A stretch of DNA of 64,000 bases from Rudaea cellulosilytica DSM 22992. Its GTDB lineage: Bacteria > Pseudomonadota > Gammaproteobacteria > Xanthomonadales > Rhodanobacteraceae. Shown here in pieces: positions 31,587 through 39,786 of this stretch. Both the position numbers and the translations under genes were made by a program. The notes under the pieces were generated by a model, which saw only the letters and a list, made by a program, of their open reading frames with translations, was not told the origin of the DNA and did no database searches. The DNA lies in the NCBI RefSeq assembly GCF_000378125.1, contig NZ_KB899241.1, positions 1,091,652 to 1,155,651 of the forward strand. The letters are read 5' to 3'. Each line of letters begins with the position of its first letter. The first letter of the stretch is position 1.

Positions 31587-32600
31587 CTACGCGCTTTGCA
31601 CGCCGTCGATTTCGACCAACAATTCGCCGCGGCAGATATCGCCGTGCAACAGCAGCAGGCACGTGTGCGCGGGCAATTTGCCGCGCAGCAGCGCGTGCGC
31701 GCCGGCGACGTCTTCACTGCGCCGCACGTAGACCTTGAGCACGGCGCCGGCGCTCAGGCGTTCGGCCGGCGCGACTTGCGCGGCGGCGAGCACGCTGTCG
31801 ATGTTGGCGAGCGTTTCGGCTATCTGCGCTTCGAGGTCGTCGTGATGGTGCGAGACATGGCCGACGATCGCAGCGGTACCGGAAATGTATACTTGTACAC
31901 TTCGCGTCGGCGCGCGCGTGGCACGCGCAAACGTCGGCGCCTTGATGCCGTACTGACGCGGGTAGCGCCAGGCACTGACCTGACGCGGGTTTTCGAATCC
32001 GATGCCGGCTGCGCGCGCGGCCAGCCAATACACCTGCAGCACGCGGCGGCCGTCGCGCACGCCGATGCCGGTGGCAGCGGGGTAGGCGTCGACGAAGCCT
32101 TGTTCGAGCCCCGCGGCACGACCGACGCAGAAGCGGCGGTAGCGCTCGTCGTCGCCCGCGCCGAGATTGATCGCGTCAAGGTAGTTCCAGATGCGCAGCA
32201 CGTGCGGCGTATCGCTCGCGGCAACCGCGGCCAGCAGTTTGCGATAGGCGACCGCGGCGGCGTTTTCGATGCCGCCGTGCGCGGCCTCGTCGACCTCGAT
32301 CGCGCCGAACGCGTAGTCGCCGTCGAAGGACTGAGCGATGCCGTCGTCGCGCCTTGCGTGAACGCTGCCTTGCACGCGCCAGACCTCGAACGGCGCGGTT
32401 GCATCCGCGGGCTCGAGGTTGACGCGCAGGTAGCGCGGATCGGCATGAGCTGCAGGCGCCTGCGCGCCGAAGCCGAACACCGCGAGCACGCGGTCGTCGC
32501 CGAGGATGGTGTCGAGTTCCATGGCTTCGTAGCGGATGCCCAACGGTGGCAGGCCATCCGTGGCGGGATGCGGGGAGATGTCTGGTTTCGCTGAAGACAA
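31587..32600 (-). CDS. xanB2: XanB2-type chorismatase (hydroxybenzoate synthase)
   Basis: Member of the FkbO/Hyg5/XanB2 family, which hydrolyses chorismate to 3- and 4-hydroxybenzoate; in Xanthomonas this supplies the xanthomonadin starter and ubiquinone. The conserved blocks are RVLAVFGFGAQAP, DPRYLRVNLEP, SGTAAIVGHVSHH and LLLLHGDICRGELLVEIDGVQ. TTG 32600 gives 337 residues, close to the 331 of XanB2, and has GAGG 6 nt upstream. ATG 32519 would remove conserved sequence, and an ATG at 32666 would use codons inside the repeat element. It is divergent from the pigment-type genes and separated from them by that repeat. Confidence 0.85.
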   Translation of the reverse strand: MSSAKPDISPHPATDGLPPLGIRYEAMELDTILGDDRVLAVFGFGAQAPAAHADPRYLRVNLEPADATAPFEVWRVQGSVHARRDDGIAQSFDGDYAFGAIEVDEAAHGGIENAAAVAYRKLLAAVAASDTPHVLRIWNYLDAINLGAGDDERYRRFCVGRAAGLEQGFVDAYPAATGIGVRDGRRVLQVYWLAARAAGIGFENPRQVSAWRYPRQYGIKAPTFARATRAPTRSVQVYISGTAAIVGHVSHHHDDLEAQIAETLANIDSVLAAAQVAPAERLSAGAVLKVYVRRSEDVAGAHALLRGKLPAHTCLLLLHGDICRGELLVEIDGVQSA

Positions 32601-32603
32601 AGG

Positions 32604-32742
32604 GGACCTCTGATTAAACCTACTGCGCTCGATAACTTGCGCGCCGGCGGTGCTCGGAATCCTCATGAACCAGTAAACTCCGGTTCCTGCGCTCCGGCGA
32701 CGCGCGAATTCTCTTCGCTCGCTACGGTTAATCAGAGGTTCC
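32604..32742. repeat. MITE-like palindromic repeat, copy 1
   Basis: 139-bp element whose ends are inverted repeats: ACCTCTGATTAA on the left (32606-32617) matches the complement of TTAATCAGAGGT on the right (32728-32739). The interior, from CTACTGCGCTCGATAA to CTTCGCTCGCTAC, is also imperfectly self-complementary and is shared with the copy at 39606-39750. No coding capacity. It lies between the chorismatase start codon and the acyl-carrier-protein gene. Confidence 0.85.
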
Positions 32743-32788
32743 GAAGACAGGTCGCCGCCTGCGTGGCGCGAGGTTTTCGATGGCGCAA

Positions 32789-32797
32789 TGATACACT
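32789..32797 (+). promoter_or_regulatory. Candidate extended -10 for the acyl-carrier-protein operon
   Basis: TGATACACT matches an extended -10 (TGnTAnAnT) 52 nt upstream of the ACP start, with no convincing -35. It is just outside the repeat element, so the operon could be transcribed from here without the repeat. Confidence 0.35.
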
Positions 32798-32849
32798 GCG
32801 CGGCCGCCGCGACCGCACTCGGACCGCGCCCGCATACGGAAAACCGACC

Positions 32850-33119
32850 ATGTCACAGCAGACGCCCGCCGAGCACGAGCTCGCCAGCCTCATCGTTTCG
32901 AGTCTGAATCTGGAACATCTCAAGGCCGAGCAATTTGCGCCCGAGGCACCGTTGTTCGGCACCGAAACCGGACTCGATTCGATCGACGCGCTCGAACTCG
33001 CGCTGGCGGTGTCCAAGCGCTACGGCTTCCAGCTGCGTTCCGACAACGCCGACAATAAGCGCATCTTTTCCAGCCTGCGCGCCCTTTCGCAACACATCGA
33101 GAGCCATCGGGCGCATTGA
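32850..33119 (+). CDS. Acyl carrier protein of a pigment (aryl-polyene type) locus
   Basis: 89-residue ACP with the phosphopantetheine attachment motif LDSIDALEL; Ser44 is the predicted 4'-phosphopantetheine site. The sequence is shorter in acidic content than fatty-acid AcpP and resembles the XanC/ApeE-type carriers. ATG 32850 is chosen; the upstream open frame passes through the repeat. It heads a rightward operon with a membrane protein and hotdog dehydratases. Its starter would be the hydroxybenzoate made by the chorismatase, if an aryl-ACP ligase exists elsewhere. Confidence 0.88.
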   Translation: MSQQTPAEHELASLIVSSLNLEHLKAEQFAPEAPLFGTETGLDSIDALELALAVSKRYGFQLRSDNADNKRIFSSLRALSQHIESHRAH

Positions 33120-33129
33120 AGAGCTGCGC

Positions 33130-33744
33130 ATGCGCGTCGCGGTCTGGCTCGCAATACTCGCGCTCGCGCTGGGCGGTGTCCTGCTGCACAACGAAACCCT
33201 CACTGCGGCGATCGCCCCGCTTGCGCTCGCGTACCTCCTGATCGTCTCGCCGCGTATGCTGCGTGTTGCGCTCGCGGCGATCGTGGTTGTCGAAGCCGCG
33301 GCATGGTGGATCGGCGGTGCGCGCCTGATGCTCGATCTGCTGCCCGCAGCGATCGCCGCCTTCGTCGGCTGGCTGTTCGCGCGCAGTCTCATAGCGCCGC
33401 GCCGGCCGCTGATCGCGCGCGCGATCGCGGCGATCGACGGCCCGGCACGATTGGACGAGGTCGCGGTTGCGCGCTACGCACGCCGGTTGACTGTGCTTTG
33501 GGCCGCGTTCCAGGCGTTGCTCGCGACGTTCGGCTTGCTCTGCGTGCTGCACGATCATGGCGCGATCGCCGTACCCATGCCGTCAGCGCGCGCCTACGAT
33601 CTGATCCTGCCGCTGGCGGTGGCGATGTTGTTCTTCGGCGAATTCCTGCTGCGCCCGCGTCTGTTGCCGCAGGTGCCACGACATACACTGGTTGGTTTTC
33701 TGCGCGAGCTCGCCAGCGTTTGGCCGGAACTGATCGAGAAGTAA
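33130..33744 (+). CDS. COG4648-type membrane protein of pigment locus
   Basis: 204-residue membrane protein with about six hydrophobic helices, starting MRVAVWLAILALALGG 10 nt after the ACP stop. The order ACP then COG4648 protein is typical of xanthomonadin and aryl-polyene clusters. Its role there is undefined. Conserved-looking soluble segment RPLIARAIAAIDGPARLDEVAVARYARRLT. The C-terminus PRHTLVGFLRELASVWPELIEK is cytoplasmic if helices are counted from an inside N-terminus. Assignment rests on context and hydropathy. Confidence 0.75.
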   Translation: MRVAVWLAILALALGGVLLHNETLTAAIAPLALAYLLIVSPRMLRVALAAIVVVEAAAWWIGGARLMLDLLPAAIAAFVGWLFARSLIAPRRPLIARAIAAIDGPARLDEVAVARYARRLTVLWAAFQALLATFGLLCVLHDHGAIAVPMPSARAYDLILPLAVAMLFFGEFLLRPRLLPQVPRHTLVGFLRELASVWPELIEK

Positions 33745-33797
33745 ACCGGCACGAACCGCATCCGCGGGAAGCAATGTGTTCCGGCTATTATCGACGC

Positions 33798-34091
33798 ATG
33801 ATTGCCACGCGCCTGCGCATCGCTGCCGACCATCCTGCATTGCCCGGCCATTTTCCCGGGCGGCCGGTCGTGCCCGGCGTGGTCGTGCTTGACCGCATCG
33901 CCGCGGCGATCGAACGCGAATATGGTGCGCGCATCGTCGCGCTGCCACAGGTGAAGTTCGCCGCGCCGCTGCTGCCGGAGGAGGAAGCCGAGCTGCATAT
34001 CGAGGAAAAGGATGGCCGGCTGCACTTTCAGGTGCTGCGCGCCGGCACTCCGGTTGCGAGCGGCATCGCCGAGACGGAGCCGACGGCGTGA
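33798..34091 (+). CDS. Hotdog-fold 3-hydroxyacyl-ACP dehydratase, ApeI-like
   Basis: 97-residue single-domain hotdog protein with LPGHFPGRPVVPGVVVLD at about residues 14-31, the FabA/FabZ-type active-site helix (His and the VVPG turn). It is shorter than FabZ, as ApeI-type dehydratases of aryl-polyene clusters are. It would dehydrate the 3-hydroxyacyl intermediates of polyene extension. Its stop overlaps the GTG start of the next gene (GTGA), indicating coupled translation. Confidence 0.82.
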   Translation: MIATRLRIAADHPALPGHFPGRPVVPGVVVLDRIAAAIEREYGARIVALPQVKFAAPLLPEEEAELHIEEKDGRLHFQVLRAGTPVASGIAETEPTA

Positions 34092-35038
34092 GTGCGCAAT
34101 GGAGCGAGCGGCGCGAGGCCGGCGGCCGCTTCGCGATTTGGCTGATCCGTGGCGCCGGCCTCTATGCGGGCCGCGGCTTCGCGCGCCTGGCGCTGTATCC
34201 GATCACGCTGTACTTCTATTTCCGCCGCGCGCGCGAACGGCGCGATTCGCGCGAGTTCCTGACTCTGGCGCTCGGCCGCCCGGCACGCGCGTGGGACATC
34301 CTCAAGCACATCCACAGCTATGCGGCGACGATCCTCGATCGCATCTACTTGCTTCATGATGCGAAGCTGGATCGTTTCGCGTTCCGCGTGCATGGCCTCG
34401 AACAGCTCGAAGTCGAGATGGCGCGCGGCCGCGGCGTGCTCCTGCTCGGCTCGCATTTCGGCAGCTTCGAAGCACTGCGCGCGCTGGCCATCCGCCGGCC
34501 TGAGGTGCGGCTGTGCGTGGTCATGGACCTCAAGCAGACGCGCGCGCTCAACGAGCTGCTGCACGCGCTCAATCCCGGCGTCGCCGCAAACGTGATCGAC
34601 GCGGGCGTTGATCCGGGCGCGCTGGCACTGGCCCTGCACGAGGCCGCGCAGCAGGGCGCGCTGATCGGGCTGCTTGCCGATCGCGCGCGCGCGCAGGAGT
34701 CGACCGCAGCGGTCGAATTCTTCGGCCGTACCGCACACATCCCCGTCGCTGGCTACCAGATCGCCTCGATGCTTGACCTGCCCGTCGTGCTCGCGTTCGG
34801 CGTTTATCTTGGCGGCAACCGCTACGATCTGCACTTCGAGACATTGGCGCAAAACATGAAAATCCCACGCGGCGATCGCGCCGCGCAATTGCAGGTATGG
34901 GCGCAACGCTACGCCGCGCGGCTCGAAGACTATGCGCGCCGATATCCGTACAACTGGTTCAACTTATATGATTTCTGGGATTCTCCTCGCGAGCGCGCTG
35001 ACATTCGTCGCGACTCCGTCGCCTCCGCCGCCGGCTGA
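34088..35038 (+). CDS. Lysophospholipid acyltransferase (LpxL-like)
   Basis: 316-residue integral-membrane acyltransferase of the LpxL/HtrB family. GTG start in a GTGA overlap with the upstream gene. The HX4E motif is HFGSFE near residue 125 (LLLGSHFGSFEAL), followed by the LADRARAQES loop and VEFFGRTAHIPVAGYQIASML. The C-terminal WFNLYDFWD is typical of this family. In aryl-polyene loci such enzymes are proposed to transfer the polyene to a lipid or glycerophospholipid anchor. The last 71 nt overlap the next gene. Confidence 0.87.
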   Translation: MSAQWSERREAGGRFAIWLIRGAGLYAGRGFARLALYPITLYFYFRRARERRDSREFLTLALGRPARAWDILKHIHSYAATILDRIYLLHDAKLDRFAFRVHGLEQLEVEMARGRGVLLLGSHFGSFEALRALAIRRPEVRLCVVMDLKQTRALNELLHALNPGVAANVIDAGVDPGALALALHEAAQQGALIGLLADRARAQESTAAVEFFGRTAHIPVAGYQIASMLDLPVVLAFGVYLGGNRYDLHFETLAQNMKIPRGDRAAQLQVWAQRYAARLEDYARRYPYNWFNLYDFWDSPRERADIRRDSVASAAG

Positions 35039-35615
35039 ACTCGCGCCGGAAACGGCGGCACTGGTTGTCTCGCTGCGCCGCCCGGTGCCGGCCGACACGG
35101 TTTACGCCGAGGTGCGCTTCGTGCACATGCTGCGCCGGCCGATCCTGTTGCGGGGCGAGCTGCACTATGGTGGCGCAGGGCAGCTGGGCAAGCGCGTCGA
35201 TGCGCCGTATCAGGAGACGACCACGATCGCCGGCGCTGATGTTCGCGTGCAGCGCGAAGGCAAGAACGAACGTACGTTCTCGCTCGAACGCGCGCCCGAA
35301 CTCGGCGCGTTGCTGTCCGGGTTCTCCGCCCTGCTCGGCGGCGACGCGCAAGCGCTCAACCGCGATTTCAGCGTCGAGGCGACGCGTCGCGGCGAAAGCT
35401 GGCAATTGAAACTCACCCCGCGTTCGGCTGCGCTGGTCAAGCAACTCTCGACGATGATCGTCGATGGCCGCGGCAACGAGCCGAGCTGTTTCACCTTGCG
35501 CGAGGCCGACGGCGATTCGAGCACGATGCTGCTCGGCAGCCTCGCGCAAGCCAAATTCGGCGATCCGCTGACGCGCGAGTCTGTCGAAAAACTCTGTGTC
35601 GGTCCCACGCCTTGA
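34968..35615 (+). CDS. LolA-like outer-membrane lipoprotein carrier homologue
   Basis: 215-residue secreted protein resembling the LolA-like component of aryl-polyene clusters. From ATG 34968 it has a signal peptide (MISGILLASALTFVATPSPPPPA). The mature part has VYAEVRFVHMLRRPILLRGELHYGG and SLERAPELGALLSGFSALLGGD, consistent with an open beta-barrel lipid-binding fold. The start overlaps the acyltransferase gene by 71 nt, which is long, but a later start would lose the signal peptide. It probably carries the polyene lipid across the periplasm. Confidence 0.78.
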   Translation: MISGILLASALTFVATPSPPPPAELAPETAALVVSLRRPVPADTVYAEVRFVHMLRRPILLRGELHYGGAGQLGKRVDAPYQETTTIAGADVRVQREGKNERTFSLERAPELGALLSGFSALLGGDAQALNRDFSVEATRRGESWQLKLTPRSAALVKQLSTMIVDGRGNEPSCFTLREADGDSSTMLLGSLAQAKFGDPLTRESVEKLCVGPTP

Positions 35616-37948
35616 GCCGCGGCGCCATCGCAAATCGCTGGTTGCTGCTCGGCGCCTGGATTTTCGCCCTCGCCGCGCTCGGTTTTGTCGTTCAGCGCAG
35701 CCTCGTTGTCACCAGTGATCTGCGCGCCTTCATGCCGCCGCCGCGCAATACGGACCAGAAGCTGCTGCTCGATCAGATCGGCGAGGGGCCGGCATCGCGC
35801 CTGTTGTTGCTCGAAATCGCGGCGAAGCAGGAGTCGTTCGAGCACTTTGCCGAGCTCAGCCGCGGCCTCGCCCAGGCGCTGCGCGGAGACCCGCATTTCA
35901 CCCGCGTGCTGAACGGCGAGGTTGACCTCACTGCACTTGATCCGGCGCTGCTGCCGTATCGCTACCTGTTATCTCCAACGCTCGATGCGCAGCCGCTCGA
36001 TGCCGATTTCCTGCGCGATGAATTGCACCAGCGCGTCGAAGACCTGGCCTCGCCCGCGGCGGGCATGCTGAAGCCGTGGCTCGCGCGCGACCCGACCCTG
36101 GAAATGCTCAAGCTCGCGCAGCGCTGGACGCCGGCCAAGGCACCGCAGATGCGCGACGGCGTGTGGGTGGCGCCCGACGGTGGCGCGCTGCTGCTCGTCG
36201 AAACCGCTGCACCGGCGTTCGATCCGGCGGCGCAGGGCGCGGCGATCGATGCGCTGCGCGCGAAGTTCGACGCGTTGGCCGACAGCAAGCAAGCGCACTT
36301 GGAAATCAGCGGACCGGGTTACTTCAGCGTGCTCGTCAATGCGAACACGCGCGCCGAAGCCGAGTGGCTCAGCGCCATCGGCACGCTTGCATTCGCCGTT
36401 CTGCTGCTCCTCGCCTACCGTCATCCGGGCGTGTTGCTTTCGGCCGCGCTGCCGATCGCCAGTGGCGCGCTCGCCGGCATCGCCGCTACCGTGTTCGTAT
36501 TCGGGCCGATTCACGGCATTACGCTTGCGTTCGGCTTCACCCTGCTCGGCGTCGCCCAGGAATATCCGTTGCGCCTGCTCAGCCACCGGCGCGCGGGTGT
36601 CAGCGCGCAGGAAAGCCTCGCCGGCGTCTGGTCGCTGTTGCGCCTGGCGATCGCCTCGGCTTGCATCGCCTATCTCGCCTTCTTCGCCTCGGGCGTGACC
36701 GGGCTGCAGCAGCTCGCTGTGTTCACGATCGCCGGCTTGATCGTCGCCGGTTTCGTCACCCGCGCCCTGTTGCCCGCAGTTCTGCCCGAGCGCTTCACCG
36801 ATGTGGCCGACTCTGCGTGGCTGGAAAAACTACGGATCACGCTCGACGCGGCGCCGCGTCTGCGCGTGCTGCCGTGGCTGCTGCTCGTGCTCGCCTGTGC
36901 CGCGATCGGCTTTGCGCCGACGCCGCTGTGGCAGAACGATCTCGCCGCGTTGACACCGGTGCCGCCGCAGCTGTTGCAGCGCGAAGGCGAGCTGCGCGCC
37001 GCGCTCGGCGCTCCCGATGTGCGCTACCTGCTCCTGCTCGACGCGGCGGATGCCGACGGCGTGCTCGCCTTGTCGGAGAAAATTTCTCCACGAGTGGAAA
37101 AGTGGATTGCCGACAAGCTCGTCGACGACGTCGAATTGCCAAGCCGCTGGTTGCCGAGTCTCGGCACGCAGACCGCACGTCAGGCGAAGCTGCCCGACCG
37201 CGTCACGCTGCAGGCCGCGCTTGACCACGCCTCGCAGGACAGCGAATTCCAGCCCGACCTGTTCGTCCCATTCCTCGATGACGTCGAAGCTGCACGCAAA
37301 TTGCCTCCACTGACACCAAAAACGTTTGGCGCCTCGCTGCTTGGCGCGCGGCTCAATGCGATGCTGGCTGAACGCGACGGCCGCGGCCTGGGCCTCGCCA
37401 CGCTCAGCGGTGTGCACGACGCAGATGCGCTGGCGAAGGCAGTCGCGCAACTCGGCGACAACGTCAGGCTGCTCGACTTGAAGGGCGCCTCCGAATCGCT
37501 AGTCGCTGATTACCGTGCGCGCATCGGCATCGCCCTGCTCGTCGCACTAGCGCTGCTCGCCGTCGCCGTCGCCCTCGCCTTCCGCGATCTGCGCCGCGCC
37601 TGGCACGTGATCGCGCCGATGTCGCTCGCCACCCTGCTCGCGCTCGCGATGCTGCGTCTTGGCGGCGTGTCGCTGTCGCTGTTCCATCTCGTCGCGTTGA
37701 CCCTAGCCGCCGGCCTTGGCCTGCACTATGCGCTGTTCTTCGAACGCCGCGTCGACGATCCGGCCGAAGCGCGCCGCACCCTGCACGCCACCTTGGTCTG
37801 TGTCGTCTCCGCCGTATTCGTGTTCGGGCTGCTCGCGACGTCGAGCGTGCCCGTGCTGCGCGCGATCGGGCTGACCGTGGCGCTCGGCGTCGCCTTCCAT
37901 TTCTGCCTGTCGACGATCATGGCGAGGAATTCGCAGCATGATCGTTAA
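35612..37948 (+). CDS. MMPL-family exporter of pigment locus
   Basis: 778-residue RND-superfamily (MMPL) transporter with two repeats of one plus five helices and two large periplasmic domains. TTG start in a TTGA overlap with the LolA-like gene. Transmembrane blocks are near 10-30, 250-375, 400-420 and 640-770. Where MMPL proteins often carry GxxxDY in the fourth and tenth helices, the first repeat here reads GVAQEYPLRLLSH and the second GLGLHYALFFERR, so the proton-relay acid may differ. In xanthomonadin clusters the equivalent exporter moves the polyene lipid outward. Confidence 0.86.
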   Translation: MSRGAIANRWLLLGAWIFALAALGFVVQRSLVVTSDLRAFMPPPRNTDQKLLLDQIGEGPASRLLLLEIAAKQESFEHFAELSRGLAQALRGDPHFTRVLNGEVDLTALDPALLPYRYLLSPTLDAQPLDADFLRDELHQRVEDLASPAAGMLKPWLARDPTLEMLKLAQRWTPAKAPQMRDGVWVAPDGGALLLVETAAPAFDPAAQGAAIDALRAKFDALADSKQAHLEISGPGYFSVLVNANTRAEAEWLSAIGTLAFAVLLLLAYRHPGVLLSAALPIASGALAGIAATVFVFGPIHGITLAFGFTLLGVAQEYPLRLLSHRRAGVSAQESLAGVWSLLRLAIASACIAYLAFFASGVTGLQQLAVFTIAGLIVAGFVTRALLPAVLPERFTDVADSAWLEKLRITLDAAPRLRVLPWLLLVLACAAIGFAPTPLWQNDLAALTPVPPQLLQREGELRAALGAPDVRYLLLLDAADADGVLALSEKISPRVEKWIADKLVDDVELPSRWLPSLGTQTARQAKLPDRVTLQAALDHASQDSEFQPDLFVPFLDDVEAARKLPPLTPKTFGASLLGARLNAMLAERDGRGLGLATLSGVHDADALAKAVAQLGDNVRLLDLKGASESLVADYRARIGIALLVALALLAVAVALAFRDLRRAWHVIAPMSLATLLALAMLRLGGVSLSLFHLVALTLAAGLGLHYALFFERRVDDPAEARRTLHATLVCVVSAVFVFGLLATSSVPVLRAIGLTVALGVAFHFCLSTIMARNSQHDR

Positions 37949-38369
37949 GGCAGACTGGGAATATTTGATTCCGCATCGTGGCGCGATGAGTCTGCTCGAC
38001 AGCGTCGTCGATTGGGATGACGAGCACATCCATCTGACCGCGATCTCACACACGCACACCGACAACCCGCTGCGCAGCGATGGCCTGCTGCGCGCAGTGC
38101 ACTTGTGCGAATACGGCGCGCAGGCGATGGCCGTGCATGGCGGCCTGTTCGCGCAGCGCGAAGGCAAGGTTGCGGCGCCGGGTCTGCTTGTCTCGCTGCG
38201 CAGCGTGCGCCTGCATGTCGCGCGCGTCGACGAGCTGCCCGGCCCGCTCGACGTGCACGCAATCAAGCTGCTCGATGGCGGTGCGAGCTGGCAATACGAA
38301 TTCCGCGTCGAGCATCGAGGCCAGGTGCTCGCCGAAGGTCGCGCGGCGGTGATCCGCGCCGCGCCCTGA
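37938..38369 (+). CDS. ApeP-like 3-hydroxyacyl-ACP dehydratase
   Basis: 143-residue hotdog protein that overlaps the exporter by 11 nt. It has the ApeP-type N-terminal block WEYLIPHRGAMSLLDSVVDWD and the central helix LCEYGAQAMAVHGGLFAQREG. In characterised clusters ApeI and ApeP are hotdog dehydratases acting on extending aryl-polyene chains. It is the second dehydratase of this locus, although no ketosynthase is present to supply substrates. Confidence 0.84.
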   Translation: MIVKADWEYLIPHRGAMSLLDSVVDWDDEHIHLTAISHTHTDNPLRSDGLLRAVHLCEYGAQAMAVHGGLFAQREGKVAAPGLLVSLRSVRLHVARVDELPGPLDVHAIKLLDGGASWQYEFRVEHRGQVLAEGRAAVIRAAP

Positions 38370-38374
38370 CGAAA

Positions 38375-38773
38375 TCAGGCGTTGCCGAGACTGGCGGTGC
38401 GTGCGGCGAGGAGACGCCCGAGGTAATGCCAGGCGAGGATTCCCGCGCCGATGCAGAACGGAATCAGCGCGAACTGCCTGCCAGTGACGCCGTGCCACAG
38501 TGCGGTTTCGTCGAACTCGAAGAATTCTGCGATCATCCACCACGCGTTCGCCGTGATCCAGAACACCACGGCAAGGTTGTGCGCGAGGTCCTCACGCTGA
38601 TGGCGCGCGCGCCAAGTGATGAAGATCGCCGCGCCGAGCGTCGGCACGATCATGATCATGCCGAGTGTGCGCCACATCAGGCACCAGCTGATGTCCTTGA
38701 CCAGCCAGAACACGATATGCAGATTCTCCGTGCGCCGGTGTGCCAGCGGGATGGAGTACATAGGTGTGGACAT
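38375..38773 (-). CDS. Small membrane protein of unknown function
   Basis: 132-residue hydrophobic protein, encoded against the direction of the surrounding pigment genes. Three hydrophobic stretches: about 27-53 (DISWCLMWRTLGMIMIVPTLGAAIFITW), 66-86, and 100-118. It is rich in Trp and aromatic residues (WFLVKDISWCLMWRTL, NAWWMIAEFFEFDE). ATG 38773 is a clear start. No family was recognised. It is squeezed between ApeP and FabG genes with only 5 nt to the ApeP stop. It could be an inserted unrelated gene. Confidence 0.65.
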   Translation of the reverse strand: MSTPMYSIPLAHRRTENLHIVFWLVKDISWCLMWRTLGMIMIVPTLGAAIFITWRARHQREDLAHNLAVVFWITANAWWMIAEFFEFDETALWHGVTGRQFALIPFCIGAGILAWHYLGRLLAARTASLGNA

Positions 38774-38860
38774 GGCGGTTCCTGTTCCCGGCAGCCGGTG
38801 TGCGATAAAGGTTCAAGGCCAGCGTAATTGGCCGGAGCCGCGCTGTGCAAGAATGTCTGC

Positions 38861-39607
38861 ATGACAGAGAACGCTATGCATGCAAAGCCACGCCGCGCCC
38901 TCGTCACCGGGGCCAGCGGCGACATCGGCGTGGCAATCTGCGCGGCGCTCGCCGATGCGGGCCATTTCGTCTATGCACAGGCGCATGCGAATCCGGCGCG
39001 CGCGCAGACGGCGATCGACGAAATCCACAAGAACGGCGGCGCAGGCGAAGTGCTGACGTTCGATATCGTCGACGCCGCGGCGACGCGCGCGGCGATCGAG
39101 GCGAAGCTTGAATCCGGACCGATCGACATCCTCGTGCACAATGCCGGCATCCACGACGATGCTCCTCTGGCGGGCATGAGCGAGGCGCAATGGCATCGCG
39201 TGATCGATGTGTCGCTGCACGGGTTCTTTCATGTGACGCAGCCGCTGATGCTGCCGATGGCGCGGGCGAAATTCGGGCGTATCGTCGCGGTGTCGTCGGT
39301 CGCCGCGCAGCTCGGCAACCGCGGCCAGGTCAACTACGCGGCGGCGAAGTCGGCGCTGCACGGCGCGGCGAAATCGCTGGCGCGCGAAATGGCTTCGCGT
39401 GGGGTCACGGTCAACGTGGTCGCGCCGGGCGTAGTCGCGGGGCGTCTTACCGACGCGGCATTCGACGCCGCGCAGATCCGCCAGCTTGTCCCCGCCGGGC
39501 GCGCGGGCCGACCCGAGGAGGTCGCCGCGCTGATCGCGTTCCTGTGCTCGGATGCGGCCGGCTACGTCAATGGTCAGGTCATCGGCGTCAACGGCGGCAT
39601 GGCCTAG
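38861..39607 (+). CDS. 3-oxoacyl-ACP reductase (FabG/ApeQ-like)
   Basis: SDR-family NAD(P)H-dependent ketoreductase, 248 residues from ATG 38861. An in-frame ATG at 38876 would remove five residues. Rossmann motif TGASGDIG, NAG in HNAGIHDD, and the catalytic Ser-Tyr-Lys (VSSVAAQ and NYAAAK) with the substrate tail VNVVAPGVVAGRLTD. In aryl-polyene clusters such a reductase acts on the 3-oxo intermediates. The stop codon TAG overlaps the first bases of the second repeat element. Confidence 0.85.
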   Translation: MTENAMHAKPRRALVTGASGDIGVAICAALADAGHFVYAQAHANPARAQTAIDEIHKNGGAGEVLTFDIVDAAATRAAIEAKLESGPIDILVHNAGIHDDAPLAGMSEAQWHRVIDVSLHGFFHVTQPLMLPMARAKFGRIVAVSSVAAQLGNRGQVNYAAAKSALHGAAKSLAREMASRGVTVNVVAPGVVAGRLTDAAFDAAQIRQLVPAGRAGRPEEVAALIAFLCSDAAGYVNGQVIGVNGGMA

Positions 39608-39750
39608 AACCTGTCCTTAAAGCTACTGCGCTCGATAATTTGCGCGCCGGCGGTGCTCGGAATCCTCGTGTACACCTGAGCACACTCCGGTTCCTGCGCT
39701 CCGGCGTCGCGCAAATTCTCTTCGCTCGCTACGCTTTAAGGGCAGGTTCT
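39606..39750. repeat. MITE-like palindromic repeat, copy 2
   Basis: 145-bp element. The left end AGAACCTGTCCTTAAAG (39606-39622) pairs with the complement of CTTTAAGGGCAGGTTCT at the right end (39734-39750), with one mismatch. The interior is nearly identical to copy 1 at 32604-32742 (CTACTGCGCTCGATAA, GCGCGCCGGCGGTGCTCGGA, CTTCGCTCGCTACG). No coding capacity. It follows the FabG stop codon directly. Confidence 0.85.
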
Positions 39751-39786
39751 TGGGGTGCCCGCCTTCCGCGCGAAGGGACTCGCCGC

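Follow-up and report, generated by a model that had tools for sequence, protein, structure and literature searches.

A split xanthomonadin-type gene cluster in Rudaea cellulosilytica

The 64,000-nucleotide stretch of Rudaea cellulosilytica DSM 22992 analysed here (the window, C1:1091652-1155651) lies in C1, a contig of 2.25 Mb in a genome of 4.34 Mb and 6 contigs, and carries a set of genes of the aryl-polyene (xanthomonadin) type. A first-pass annotation, made from the letters of the window, had described a chorismatase beside eight genes typical of such clusters, and we recovered all of them as open frames, with family matches for most. The observation is valid for positions 31587-39607, where the nine named genes, hereafter the arm, are arranged as follows (G numbers denote genomes of the same family):

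31587-32666, minus strand: XanB2/ArcB-like chorismatase (PF21168, 2.6e-37; TIGR04444, 220.6 bits, below the cut-off of 325)
32850-33119, plus strand: acyl carrier protein (ACP; NCBIfam PRK09184, 131 bits vs a cut-off of 70; Ser in GLDSI)
33130-33744, plus strand: membrane protein (position of Lysobacter ORF7; 62-70% identity, same position, in G008, G046 and G100)
33798-34091, plus strand: first dehydratase (DH1), FabZ/ApeI-like (FabA/FabZ-like; HxxPGxPxxPG-type motif; NCBIfam fabZ below cut-off)
34088-35038, plus strand: LpxL/HtrB-like acyltransferase (AT; PF03279, 5.5e-11)
34932-35615, plus strand: LolA-like carrier (PF19574, 4.9e-38; flexirubin LolA2, 20.5 bits, below cut-off; start codon uncertain)
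35612-37948, plus strand: MMPL/RND exporter (PF03176; 87 of 117 family genomes have a match with 50% identity or more)
37938-38369, plus strand: second dehydratase (DH2), ApeP-like (position of Lysobacter ORF12; PF22817, 17.3 bits)
38861-39607 (open reading frame (ORF) 38828-39607), plus strand: FabG-like ketoreductase (KR; PRK05653, 310.7 bits, over cut-off; Ser and YxxxK present)

The coupled overlaps previously noted within 33798-38369 are real, measuring 4 bp for DH1/AT, 4 bp for LolA/MMPL and 11 bp for MMPL/DH2, and the motifs sought in ACP, DH1, DH2, KR and AT were found in all five. The chorismatase matched FkbO and one related chain in the PDB, and adjoins the ACP in those relatives' stretches that contain both genes. 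It would be the predicted maker of a hydroxybenzoate starter; its exact product is not predictable from sequence, and reaction type in this enzyme family is likewise said to be indistinguishable from sequence (PMC3949708).

The ketosynthase (KS), chain-length factor (CLF), glycosyltransferase and aryl ligase that normally complete such clusters had been reported as absent from the window, and tblastn searches with the genome's own KS, CLF, GT2 glycosyltransferase and ligase candidate (E up to 1e-4) found none of them there. The description of the locus as lacking ketosynthases is therefore true of the window and fails for the genome, where a pathway KS lies elsewhere. Profile searches of this genome with PF00109, a KS family, led to four places, three of which were also found with PF02801, and the genome-wide search that the first-pass annotation had recommended yielded a KS-CLF-GT2 unit beside hemF and a ligase candidate near polA, all with open frames:

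C1:1528625-1529887: KS (PRK09185, 491 bits, over cut-off; Cys-His-His motifs)
C1:1162321-1163682: ligase candidate (AMP-binding domain; P-loop)

After the KS come the CLF, a PF13723 protein, and the GT2 glycosyltransferase, in overlapping frames, with hemF divergent at the other end. The best PDB match of the KS was 6qsp_A and that of its CLF partner 6qsp_B, the two halves of 6QSP, the ApeO-ApeC complex of Xenorhabdus doucetiae (PMC8358021). This unit is situated 401 kb from the arm on the same contig (start to start, KS vs MMPL), and the thresholds applied left a single KS and a single MMPL of the pathway type in the genome. Located 31 kb from the arm, the ligase candidate has polA (with one small ORF) on one side and a Sua5/topA pair on the other, and is found near polA in G008, G046 and G100 as well. 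As the chain-building genes are intact elsewhere in the genome, the locus is best described as an ordinary xanthomonadin-type pathway whose genes were rearranged into separate places. Of the two explanations offered by the first-pass annotation, a split cluster is the one supported. It had also counted intact KS, CLF and ligase genes elsewhere, with normal aryl-polyene production, against its own view; as far as genes go, this is what we found.

Several other candidates were rejected. The other two KS proteins are FabF-like: one, on C4, adjoins fabG, and the other, on C5, scored 454.6 bits with TIGR03150 against a cut-off of 493.75 and exceeded the cut-off of PRK07314. With a PRK09185 KS at hand, a fatty-acid KS is unnecessary as a stand-in. 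The C2 match from the KS search is a thiolase. An AMP-binding protein encoded upstream of the window (C1:1079578) has an acetyl-CoA synthetase N-domain and was for this reason discarded as the aryl ligase. With regard to a possible halogenation of the product, five matches to the Trp_halogenase family were observed in the genome; some 92 kb separate the KS unit from the closest of them.

In order to place this arrangement among relatives, we compared 117 genomes drawn from the larger family, with distances taken from start to start and G045 treated as circular. Strong matches to KS and MMPL occurred together in 86 genomes, KS alone in 24, MMPL alone in 1 and neither in 6; these counts omit weaker matches (KS up to 46% identity, MMPL up to 33%), and no best match fell between these values and 50%. 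Among the 86, the spacing was at most 12 kb in 49, 13-60 kb in 8 and over 60 kb in 6, and another 23 had the two genes on separate contigs. Undivided clusters read hemF and KS-CLF-GT2, then on the opposite strand KR, DH2, MMPL, LolA, AT, DH1, membrane protein and ACP, followed by the chorismatase. The full set forms one cluster in G038, G001 and G087, in the order of Lysobacter ORF5-17, so that the recommended synteny comparison also supported a split; each of the two Rudaea units, the arm in the window and the distant KS-CLF-GT2, is orthologous to a part of these single clusters. The G081 stretch gave no KR or membrane-protein match, and G006 no membrane-protein or chorismatase match and a KR match of just 33%, beyond hemF.

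In Rudaea the cluster is broken between GT2 and KR, the latter being the last arm gene ahead of the break point. In a search of 16 genomes of the genus, KS was detected in 15, MMPL likewise in 15, and both in 14; of these 14, the window genome and G008 have the two genes on one contig and the remaining 12 have them on separate contigs, a pattern that by itself proves nothing. The eight closest loci (L032-L039) showed no KR, DH2 or MMPL match in their stretches, six of which reach at least 3 kb beyond GT2. That the separation is an assembly artefact could be supposed from the 6 contigs of the assembly, but both units sit inside one 2.25 Mb contig, and G008 has the same split, at 453 kb, also within one contig. 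Decay of the arm is opposed by its open frames and by the low substitution ratios of most genes given below. We regard both explanations as close to untenable.

Breaks at the GT2/KR junction recur in G084 and in G031 and G045, with G087 as an undivided genus-mate. G057 and G086 keep KR together with GT2 and are broken between KR and DH2; G026 likewise retains KR with GT2, and neither of its fetched stretches contained DH2. A tree of 22 of the 117 genomes and two Variovorax loci was drawn with Variovorax as outgroup. Since the two Variovorax loci grouped with Rudaea (support 0.71), the drawn root was not trusted and groupings alone were used; by these, and with no formal reconstruction, the broken genomes form about four groups, one of them Rudaea, with undivided genomes between them. 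The grouping of the two Variovorax loci with Rudaea might reflect gene transfer. Loci L040-L109 (minus L100, L106 and L108; mostly Variovorax and kin) have a KS 62-69% identical to that of Rudaea, mostly with a CLF, and no MMPL, LolA, AT or ACP match in stretches of at most 10 kb on each side, some much shorter.

Reduced clusters were also observed. L112, L114, L115 and L116 (G115, G021, G112 and G044) hold KS-CLF-GT2, DH2, AT, DH1 and ACP; their stretches gave no MMPL, LolA, KR or membrane-protein match, and the chorismatase is present in three of the four. The sole MMPL matches of these genomes lie outside the stretches and reach 28-30% identity; those of G115 and G021 have a second KS (40-43%) at a distance of about 9 kb. 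In L113 (G069) the fetched 19 kb contained hemF-KS-CLF-GT2 and none of the arm genes, the chorismatase being about 115 kb off.

To see whether both units remain under selection, a test that the first-pass annotation had proposed for the retained genes, we estimated pairwise ratios of nonsynonymous to synonymous substitution (dN/dS) among four genus genomes, computing four of the six pairs. The distant genes gave 0.09-0.11 (KS), 0.16-0.24 (CLF), 0.05-0.07 (GT2) and 0.07-0.11 (ligase candidate). In the arm we obtained 0.03-0.09 for ACP, 0.08-0.11 for MMPL, 0.08-0.09 for KR, 0.11-0.13 for the chorismatase, 0.10-0.14 for AT, 0.20-0.31 for the membrane protein and 0.17-0.20 for DH2; the controls polA, hemF and the neighbouring cytochrome c gave 0.10-0.13, 0.06-0.10 and 0.04-0.12. 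The estimated ratio is low for most genes of both units, the KS included, and for the ligase candidate.

These values bear on the second explanation of the first-pass annotation, namely that the arm was kept for another lipid; the distant KS-CLF-GT2 unit would then serve a separate product. The two units are some 400 kb apart and part company in some relatives: G115, G021, G112 and G044 have KS-CLF-GT2 without detected MMPL, LolA and KR, and G069 has it without any arm gene in its 19 kb. Against this, the one KS and one MMPL of pathway type detected at these thresholds have their orthologues within a single cluster in relatives, most genes of either unit show low dN/dS, and the single pigment of Azoarcus depends on its two unlinked loci together (PMC3949708). 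A different lipid thus found no support, and we consider a separate product very improbable.

Taken together, these findings indicate that the arm is the transport, anchoring and reducing part of a complete xanthomonadin-type (aryl polyene) type II polyketide synthase pathway with genes in three chromosomal places, a reading to which we assign a probability of about 90%. A dedicated ACP, KR and two dehydratases are present, as are AT, GT2, the LolA-like carrier and the MMPL/RND exporter. Several observations weigh on the other side. The membrane protein had no match in Pfam and NCBIfam searches, so its COG4648/ApeG label follows from position only and is not confirmed, and DH2, with 17.3 bits for PF22817 against a cut-off of 27, is assigned by position. 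The LolA-like gene is the least conserved of the arm (47-50% identity in G100 and G008), with dN/dS of 0.17-0.30 in two long pairs and 0.47-0.89 in two pairs of 41-42 codons from a fragment; in Lysobacter, pigment continued after loss of the LolA-like ORF10 (PMC3691225), so the conservation of this gene says little either way. DH1 ranged from 0.09 to 0.40, the latter in one of four pairs, and dS of 0.4-2.9 makes all these ratios rough. The best NCBIfam matches of the ligase candidate are below cut-offs; its putative role is assigned from its domain and its presence in 112 of the 117 family genomes, and being near universal it is weak evidence of partnership with the pathway.

Known systems show both arrangements. 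The yellow-pigment (xanthomonadin-like) locus of Lysobacter enzymogenes OH11, ORF5-ORF17, has the same gene kinds and, going by the ORF numbers, the same order as the undivided relatives: chorismatase homologue, ACP, unknown, dehydratase, AT, LolA-like, exporter, dehydratase, KR, unknown, and ORF15, ORF16 and ORF17, which are glycosyltransferase-like, CLF-like and KS (PMC3691225). There the genes are closely clustered, whereas Rudaea is broken between KR and GT2, and the word 'ligase' is absent from the text of the paper on that locus (PMC3691225). Arcuflavin of Azoarcus sp. BH72 is made by a xanthomonadin-type pathway in two physically unlinked arc loci, with arcK, arcJ and arcE (KS, CLF-like, glycosyltransferase) apart from arcP, Q, R, T and V; the exporter locus has the exporter, LolA, one acyltransferase, ligase and ACP, and an insertion in arcK or arcT, one per locus, abolishes pigment (PMC3949708). 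Rudaea resembles BH72 in that KS, CLF and glycosyltransferase are unlinked from exporter, LolA and ACP. In BH72, however, KR, one dehydratase and the chorismatase accompany the KS locus and the ligase accompanies the exporter (PMC3949708), whereas in Rudaea the exporter arm includes KR, both dehydratases and the chorismatase, and the ligase candidate is in a third place. The ape clusters of E. coli, Acinetobacter and Xenorhabdus share with Rudaea the ApeO-ApeC type KS-CLF, ACP, KR, two dehydratases, RND exporter and Lol-like proteins; they carry a second KS, ApeR, whereas the other two KS of Rudaea are FabF-like, as classed without direct ApeR comparison, and E. coli is said to use the UbiC product where Rudaea has a dedicated chorismatase (PMC8253772, PMC8358021). 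Xanthomonadin is also predicted in Luteibacter, of the same family (PMC9965599). Among the literature matches listed, no title or abstract opening treats the Rudaea arrangement. The two unlinked loci of BH72 are a precedent for such a division of the pathway, and the locus is a real but ordinary split cluster.

A dispersed imperfect palindrome of 110-145 bp, with at least 41 matches in the 4.34-Mb genome (a lower bound, 40 of 108 candidates having been scored), flanks the ACP-to-KR arm:

32601-32745, no strand: repeat copy between chorismatase and ACP
39609-39752, no strand: repeat copy directly after KR

The second copy, which contains the feature end first given (39750), stands on the window side of the break. 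Another, at C1:1518746-1518886, is about 8 kb from the KS unit, and G046 also has a copy after KR. Recombination between copies may thus have produced the split, and position alone is suggestive. However, the fetched 19.5 kb with the KS unit gave no copy of the repeat, nor did the sequence after KR in the G008 and G100 stretches (E up to 1e-5), and the abundance of the repeat means that closeness to the KS unit and the break can be chance. We therefore judge this origin unlikely; it concerns how the cluster split, not what the locus is. Between DH2 and KR there is one further frame:

38375-38773, minus strand: 132-aa protein, role and pathway membership not assigned (85-88% identity in G008, G046 and G100; dN/dS 0.03-0.07)

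It had no match in the Pfam search.

By analogy with the named homologues, the parts would act jointly as follows. The chorismatase would supply hydroxybenzoate, which the ligase candidate near polA would load onto the ACP; the KS-CLF pair beside hemF would extend this starter with malonyl units, and KR and the two dehydratases would process each unit. AT and GT2 may help to attach the polyene to lipid, and the MMPL and LolA-like proteins may move it towards the outer membrane, the whole presumably making a pigment as in those homologues. The split itself arose by rearrangement at the GT2/KR junction; this junction lies between two convergent gene sets, and the break there was probably harmless. 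Tentatively, and at somewhat less than even odds, the family pathway may be modular, with the KS-CLF-GT2 unit linked to hemF and the arm from ACP to exporter as separable cassettes that parted several times at or near the convergent junction; in some genera, where no exporter, LolA or KR was found in the cluster, a second aryl-polyene-like locus could export in trans.

Collectively, our results showed that pathway genes usually found in one cluster, an arrangement not required in Azoarcus, are about 400 kb apart here. Where core genes seem 'missing' from a cluster, the window itself can be the cause, and methods that use adjacency only may count a genome like this among those without a complete aryl-polyene pathway. 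Several breaks within one family offer a natural series on the need for co-location or co-regulation of these genes.

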